This document shows, piece by piece, positions 36,988-37,569 of a DNA stretch of 42,318 nt (position 1 is its first letter; each line of letters starts with the position of its first letter). Source of the DNA: Nitrospirota bacterium (GTDB taxonomy: Bacteria > Nitrospirota > Thermodesulfovibrionia > Thermodesulfovibrionales > JdFR-85); assembly GCA_015492515.1 (NCBI GenBank), contig WGEZ01000055.1, positions 1-42,318 of the forward strand, given 5' to 3'. A model generated the notes under the pieces. It ran no database searches and had not been told where the DNA came from. It saw nothing but the letters and a program-made list of their open reading frames with translations. The position numbers were made by a program, and so were the translations under genes.

Positions 36988-37104
36988 ATGAACACCCCTC
37001 GCGCCAGAGAGATCATAGGGATACTGATGGAGAGCAGGCTCTACTTCGACCTGAGCCTGAGGGAGAGGCACCACCTGGTGAAGCAGATCCTCCTATCCCT
37101 CTGA
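36988..37104 (+). CDS. 38-residue conserved-looking small protein
   Basis: ATG at 36988 follows AAGGA with an 8-base spacer. The product is amphipathic and helical, beginning MNTPRAREIIGILMESRLYF and ending in L-V-K-Q-I-L-L-S-L. Codon use (AGG, CTG, GAG, ATC) matches the neighbours. Its stop lies 12 bp from the end of the convergent selenoprotein reading frame. It resembles short proteins with an M-E-S-x-L-Y-F core that I recall only vaguely, and no function can be proposed. Confidence 0.6.
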   Translation: MNTPRAREIIGILMESRLYFDLSLRERHHLVKQILLSL

Positions 37105-37116
37105 GGGACCACCGGG

Positions 37117-37569
37117 TCACCCACCGAACTCCCAGTCGATGGCCCTCTTTATATCCTCGCTCGACTTCCCTTCTTTATGTAACTGGGCTGCCCTAAGGGC
37201 CTCCTGCTGACAGATTATTCAACCGGCGGCGTGGTTTTCCGTGAAGCAGCTCAAGAGGCTCTTGTGGTAGAAGGGCGGCTGATCGCAACGGCAGTAGCAG
37301 TAGACCTGATCCATCACCTCCGGGTAGCTCTTGGCAGCAGCGTAGGCTGCGCGGGCCATGCCCGTGAAGTTGGCCGGATCGAGCACCGGGCGCGTCTCTC
37401 CTCCCTTGACGAGGAAGGACCTCGTCTTCTTCCCCTTCCCCTCCGAGTTGACAAGGGGGATGTTGCCGGAGATGACTGCTACGAGTACGACCAGCACGAC
37501 GGCTCCGACGAACCAGATCAGTGGGGGCTTCTTCCTCCCCGCCTTCTTCCTCTTCTGTTTCTTCGCCAT
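37117..37569 (-). CDS. Candidate selenoprotein: membrane-anchored PCYCGC-family protein with in-frame UGA
   Basis: The frame from ATG 37569 (AAAGGG seven bases upstream) encodes a Lys/Arg-rich start, one membrane helix (17-34) and an extracytoplasmic domain. The domain has Y-C-Y-C-R-C (Cys91, 93, 95) and H-K-S-L-L-S-C-F (Cys108), the marks of PCYCGC-motif proteins. At codon 117 it meets TGA (37221-37219). The same frame then runs 33 more codons to the next TGA (37119-37117), giving I-I-C-Q-Q-E-A-L-R-A-A and a K-E-G-K-S-x-E-D-I-K-R-A-I-D ending. From memory, relatives have this ending after a Cys-x-x-Cys. Reading TGA as selenocysteine gives U-I-I-C, a UxxC redox motif. A hairpin begins eight bases on. 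The full protein is 150 residues, ending 12 bp from the convergent small gene. The alternative is a truncating stop at 117. Confidence 0.8.
37188..37221 (-). promoter_or_regulatory. SECIS-like stem-loop following the in-frame UGA
   Basis: After UGA (37221-37219) the minus strand has CUGUC (37213-37209) pairing with GGCAG (37192-37188). A mismatched internal region leads to an upper AGG/CCU stem and an apical loop AGGC (37202-37199). The loop guanines lie 19-20 bases after the first base of UGA plus one, within the usual window for bacterial selenocysteine insertion elements. The folding was done by eye. Confidence 0.5.

Follow-up and report, generated by a model that had tools for sequence, protein, structure and literature searches.

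The window studied here, a 42,318-nucleotide stretch of a Nitrospirota (Thermodesulfovibrionia) metagenome-assembled genome, carries a minus-strand gene that, judging from comparison with its homologs, appears to read an internal UGA codon as selenocysteine (Sec). By its sequence, the gene is a further member of a catalogued family, NF041379 / OS_HP4, and not a new family, because OS_HP4 has already been listed: Table 1 of a 2026 review (PMC13188914) enters the CYCXC family protein (hypothetical protein OS_HP4) under PF13798 with a UxxC motif and a single Sec, with reference to Zhang and Gladyshev 2007, and OS_HP4 is also listed in PMC9312934. An earlier, sequence-only reading of this DNA knew of no described Sec-containing member of the family; Sec in OS_HP4 has in fact been on record since 2007, in a hypothetical protein without a function. 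What is new and testable is the functional proposal made below, a CcmH-like role.

An in-frame UGA at codon 117

The coding sequence begins with an ATG at 37569 and runs for 150 codons to a TGA stop at 37119-37117 (Table 1). Codon 117 is itself a TGA, with 33 further codons before the stop, and the C-terminal stretch of the protein is KEGKSSEDIKRAIDWEFGG. All coordinates that the sequence-only reading had assigned to this frame hold, as does the gap of 12 bp that it had placed between the extended frame and a convergent open reading frame of 38 residues (36988-37104, plus strand). The latter is probably a real small gene, since it adjoins the same CYCXC gene in several relatives with 60-73% identity. 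Other neighbors encode a UvrD helicase, a pyrimidine-nucleoside phosphorylase, an aconitase, and RadC.

Taking the UGA as a stop shortens CYCXC genes by 34 residues, and this is where standard annotation would end the gene. Under this explanation the UGA is a true stop, the downstream helix is a leftover, and the gene is broken or contains a sequencing error. The bare extension does not speak against it, given that 33 open codons are expected by chance with p ~0.37 at 62% GC, so that the open frame by itself is no proof of readthrough. However, the PF13798 match spans the TGA, scoring 33.6 bits for the extended protein and 18.4 bits for the truncated one against a cut-off of 25, and the extended protein also lies above the cut-off of the NCBIfam model NF041379, "CYCXC family (seleno)protein." We searched 230 genomes of the host's class, obtained 83 genes above the NF041379 cut-off, and counted their TGAs by hand. 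Exactly one TGA falls inside the match in 77 of the 83 genes, two in 1, and none in 5, one of which has an ambiguous base at that codon; TAA or TAG occurs inside the match in none of the 83. In an independent scan of named genomes, 60 forms had TGA and 19 had Cys, and the column was the same in every case (for L098, the codon scored was the first of its two TGAs). The Cys forms run on through this column, and the downstream helices are conserved, with relatives continuing through them; relatives that end at the UGA would, according to the earlier reading, have counted against its proposal. Taken together, the TGA pattern among homologs and the PF13798 match across the codon exclude a chance extension and support the proposal, made from the sequence, of a PCYCGC-family protein with a U-I-I-C motif that is probably a selenoprotein. 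We reject a broken gene or sequencing error, which cannot give a pattern of 77 TGAs among 83 genes with no TAA or TAG, and a true stop at this codon is highly improbable.

Decoding of the UGA alone does not name the residue inserted, and the codon could in principle be decoded, through reassignment or readthrough, as Trp, Gly, or Cys. The window gene's own stop is TGA, and 17 of 60 relatives (the window gene counted) end in the same codon, so UGA also serves as a normal stop here. In addition, the column alternates only with Cys, a point that the sequence-only reading had suggested checking in homologs, and selA, selB, selC, and selD are all present in the genome. On these grounds a residue other than Sec is rejected and is exceedingly improbable.

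Weak short matches in four further genomes (G141, G090, G152, and G136) were discarded, as the motif was absent when they were read. CYCXC relatives were not found in viral contigs, and a sequence search of solved structures with the CYCXC protein gave no match. Two other loci resemble the family in part. At L077 (minus strand, ~1490-1636), downstream of an FKBP-type gene, there is a broken CYCXC remnant with only the C-terminal UxxC part in frame. In another phylum, a PF13798 gene (G282:C92:8134-8385) has two TGAs inside the match, the second of which may be a stop.

Table 1. Features of the CYCXC gene in the window, with the basis for each
Feature	Position	Strand	Basis
CYCXC-family selenoprotein CDS (predicted), 150 residues, Sec at 117	37117..37569	-	PF13798 33.6 bits across TGA; NF041379 120.7 bits, cut-off 90
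Predicted transmembrane anchor, residues 17-35, after basic N terminus	37465..37521	-	Kyte-Doolittle maximum 2.83 over 19 residues
C-x-C-x-C motif, residues 91-95 (CYCRC)	37285..37299	-	Three Cys invariant in 58 relatives
Cys108 of SLLSC motif	37246..37248	-	Invariant in 58 relatives
In-frame TGA, codon 117, apparently read as Sec, first residue of U-x-x-C	37219..37221	-	TGA in 77 (one) + 1 (two) of 83 class genes; Cys in others
U-I-I-C motif, residues 117-120, start of helix 118-132	37210..37221	-	Alignment; helix from predicted model
SECIS-like hairpin, nt 17-35 after U of UGA, GG-AG-GCCC-UUA-GGGC-AG-CC	37186..37204	-	Stem conserved at synonymous sites, 59 Sec genes
C-terminal helices 118-132 and 137-148, which exist only with UGA readthrough	37126..37218	-	Model pLDDT 93-99 (residues 51-150); conserved in relatives

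Sec machinery and the downstream hairpin

The genome containing the window (2.19 Mb, 148 contigs) has the complete set of genes that the sequence-only reading had named as a check. selA was found with 606 bits. selB gave 314.6 bits where contig 69 begins, and its first 40 positions are matched at the start of contig 117; a single gene has probably been divided between two contig ends. selC (71.9 bits) is called by ARAGORN as a tRNA-SeC with anticodon tca. selD (345 bits; G000:C131:33185-34096, L081) contains an in-frame TGA, and the selenophosphate synthetase is therefore probably a selenoprotein itself. Elsewhere, selA was present in all 8 tested genomes carrying only the Sec form and was not found in 6 of 19 Cys-form genomes, mostly metagenome assemblies in which absence is weak evidence. 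selC was above the cut-off in 7 of 11 tested Sec-form genomes and was missed in G111, G198, G223, and G225, where absence is likewise weak evidence because most are metagenome assemblies. Decoding by SelB and tRNA-Sec is the standard bacterial pathway. With these genes present and the codon conserved, SelB and tRNA-Sec would almost certainly decode UGA117, helped by a hairpin just downstream.

A hairpin with a stem of 8 bp and a loop of 3 nt spans nt 17-35 downstream of the U in the UGA in 59 Sec genes. This stem has a mean of 7.56 standard pairs out of 8, compared with 7.43 +/- 0.03 when codons are swapped within columns between sequences that agree in amino acid (none of 2000 shuffles reached this value) and with 5.94 +/- 0.14 for random synonymous codons, phylogeny being uncontrolled in both comparisons. 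In the same register, the named loci average 6.9 pairs for Sec genes and 4.2 for Cys genes; the hairpin of the Rokubacteria genes is shifted relative to this register. The hairpin in the window (internal loop, UUA apical loop, 22 nt from the UGA, -11.3 kcal/mol) is of unremarkable stability, 63% of synonymous versions being equally stable, and the SECIS claim thus rests on the comparison across relatives. The published model of bacterial SECIS elements (PMC13188914) describes spacing, a loop of 3-9 nt, energy, and a G in the first two loop positions. The window hairpin agrees with this model in its distance from the UGA, in the size of its loop, and in its energy, whereas the consensus G is missing from its UUA loop. 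UUA or UUC loops occur in 7 of 60 named Sec relatives.

Predicted fold and likeness to CcmH

The protein has one strong hydrophobic segment, behind a basic N terminus, in line with the membrane tether proposed from the sequence; the remainder should therefore lie outside the membrane. Invariant among 58 relatives are C91, C93, C95, H102, an SLLSC motif with C108, H113, residue 117, and C120, that is, six Cys/Sec and two His, both family motifs, C-x-C-x-C and [U/C]-x-x-C, being in their expected places. It is this invariance that speaks for the putative redox site of C-x-C-x-C plus a Sec-Cys pair suggested previously. In the AlphaFold2 model of the full protein, residues 51-150 form an all-helical domain with high confidence (pLDDT 93-99); modeled alone, the domain has a mean pLDDT of 96.3 and a pTM of 0.88. 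In the predicted order, helix 70-81 is followed by a Cys/Sec loop with short helical turns, helix 118-132, which starts at the Sec, and helix 137-148. The product would thus very probably consist of one N-terminal helix anchor and an extracytoplasmic domain that is small and all-helical.

CcmH is a three-helix bundle with a CxxC in the loop between helices 1 and 2, is thought to reduce apocytochrome c, and in Pseudomonas aeruginosa has a one-helix anchor (PMC3884852). When we searched structures with the model, both solved CcmH domains (PDB 2HL7 and 2KW0) were the top matches. With the full model, Foldseek gave them probabilities of 0.80 and 0.33; with the domain alone, 2HL7 received 0.35. The E values were weak, 0.6-3, and no match reached E <= 0.001 with either query, which is no evidence of a new fold. 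VIA-align gave CcmH Z scores of 4.7-4.9 over 66-67 residues, the next row scoring 2.6 with the full model and 3.4 with the domain alone. Z scores below 5 and Foldseek scores of this kind can be common among helical proteins. At E values of up to 1, the CcmH family model PF03918 had no match to the window protein. A profile-profile comparison (hhalign) against CcmH proteins from the host's class gave 68% probability (P 4.7e-5), and three neighboring families used as controls gave 0.3%, 0.3%, and 3%.

Like CcmH, the window protein is predicted to have a three-helix layout with a thiol loop between helices 1 and 2, a one-helix anchor like that of the P. aeruginosa protein, and a similar C-terminal helix (G-K-[ST]-x-x-E-I). 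CcmH and PCYCGC domains are also joined in one protein in two cases. The first is a 305-residue fusion of cytochrome c, CcmH, and PCYCGC in Nitrospiraceae bin398 (L061:1497-2414, minus strand), with all three domains above Pfam cut-offs. The second, from another phylum (L204:742-1842, plus strand), fuses CcmH (23.6 bits, just below the cut-off of 25) with DUF1573, which is on the list of selenoprotein families in PMC13188914, and PCYCGC. Furthermore, 11 of the 19 Cys-form loci lie near TlpA, ResB, CcsA, or CcdA type genes, and often directly adjacent to a TPR protein with a weak match to the CcmH/CycH TPR model. The neighbors of the window gene include no cytochrome c biogenesis genes.

The predicted fold, the profile-profile comparison, the two fusions, and the position of Cys forms beside ResB, CcsA, TlpA, and CcdA suggest that the CYCXC domain is similar to CcmH, which serves cytochrome c maturation System I as a three-helix thiol oxidoreductase. 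This link is new here: our literature search found no report linking CcmH with the CYCXC selenoprotein, and the co-mentions were unrelated. The window protein differs from CcmH in that the latter has a single CxxC, whereas the former has a CxCxC, an extra Cys, two His, and a UxxC. In the profile alignment, the canonical CxxC of CcmH aligns with the CxCxC and not with the UxxC, and the active-site geometry may therefore differ. The protein is not a CcmH family member by sequence and may work like CcmH without being one. We also observed, in Nitrospirota, TlpA-like thioredoxins fused to a CPCGC-type CcmH-like domain (L195 871-1746 and L196 871-1746, both plus strand).

Proposed function and family distribution

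The overall best explanation, which we hold with moderate confidence, is that the gene encodes a Sec-containing CYCXC (OS_HP4) protein acting as a CcmH-like extracytoplasmic thiol/selenol oxidoreductase. In a CcmH-type bundle, the loop between helices 1 and 2 would bear the C-x-C-x-C, the further Cys, and the U-x-x-C. The domain would probably work by thiol/selenol-disulfide chemistry, with Sec117 attacking or exchanging with a substrate disulfide, Cys120 resolving it, and the other thiols relaying electrons. Apocytochrome c as a substrate is less sure than the oxidoreductase activity; the fusions and the neighbors of Cys forms tentatively point to disulfides in extracytoplasmic proteins, for example in the CxxCH of apocytochrome c, as the likeliest substrates.

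The Cys/Sec/His cluster could instead bind a soft metal, most likely Cu(I), which the protein would shield or hand over outside the membrane without any disulfide exchange. Among 26 secreted Nitrospirota Sec forms, 16 adjoin CusCBA-type efflux genes and 13 adjoin a YtkA-like protein with a Met-rich stretch, and the six invariant Cys/Sec and two His would suit such a role. This context is absent, however, from membrane-anchored forms like the window protein, near whose gene we found neither CusCBA-type efflux genes nor a YtkA-like protein, and from Cys forms. Moreover, Sec in a UxxC usually marks redox chemistry (PMC13188914), and the fusions join PCYCGC to CcmH and cytochrome c domains. We therefore consider metal binding unlikely, while giving it some weight, and retain the CcmH-like oxidoreductase as the best reading.

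If the CcmH link holds, it would give OS_HP4 its first testable role, provide a case of Sec at work in a small extracytoplasmic thiol fold other than thioredoxin, and link the maturation of cytochromes c, or copper stress in the envelope, to the supply of selenium in Nitrospirota and Rokubacteria. More speculatively, CYCXC could be a distant branch of the CcmH-type three-helix fold in which Sec stands in for one Cys of the reactive site. The family would then add a selenoenzyme without a thioredoxin fold to extracytoplasmic cytochrome c maturation or thiol repair, and one lineage would have gone on to a two-selenium UxxU.

That lineage is represented by Nitrospiraceae bin398 (CP070737.1), in which one gene (G111:C1:1192438-1192707; L060 1613-1624, the same as L098) has TGA at both ends of the motif, giving U-N-L-U. 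Its hairpin is different, with a GGUC loop ~17 nt after the second UGA by hand pairing, and the genome has three further CYCXC copies. The review lists only a UxxC with one Sec for the CYCXC family (PMC13188914), in contrast to this putative UxxU. selC was not detected in the CP070737.1 assembly, and the site therefore needs checking.

The window protein matches NF041379 / OS_HP4 in curated score and in having the same UxxC with one Sec, and departs from it in nothing essential: a Nitrospirota host, a membrane-anchored N terminus, and a SECIS loop, UUA, without the consensus G. The PCYCGC lipoproteins of Bacillales (e.g., AOT13_14730, Parageobacillus; PMC13068155) share with it PF13798, the three Cys of the motif, further conserved Cys, and an extracytoplasmic location, but they are described with Cys only and have a lipid anchor in place of the transmembrane helix. 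The closest relatives of the window gene are in Nitrospirota, Thermodesulfovibrionia. Other Sec forms occur in Rokubacteria/NC10 and Syntrophus, and Cys forms mainly in lineages recorded as Deltaproteobacteria/Myxococcota. A tree, based on few columns and with many forks unresolved, has three changes between Sec and Cys labels and places two long-branched Cys rows within the window's clade. Finally, a family of exported proteins of ~110 residues ending in RSIY, with no match in Pfam or NCBIfam, recurs near CYCXC genes (L094 4481-4807, L096 4459-4785, L106, L107, L128, L141, and L144).
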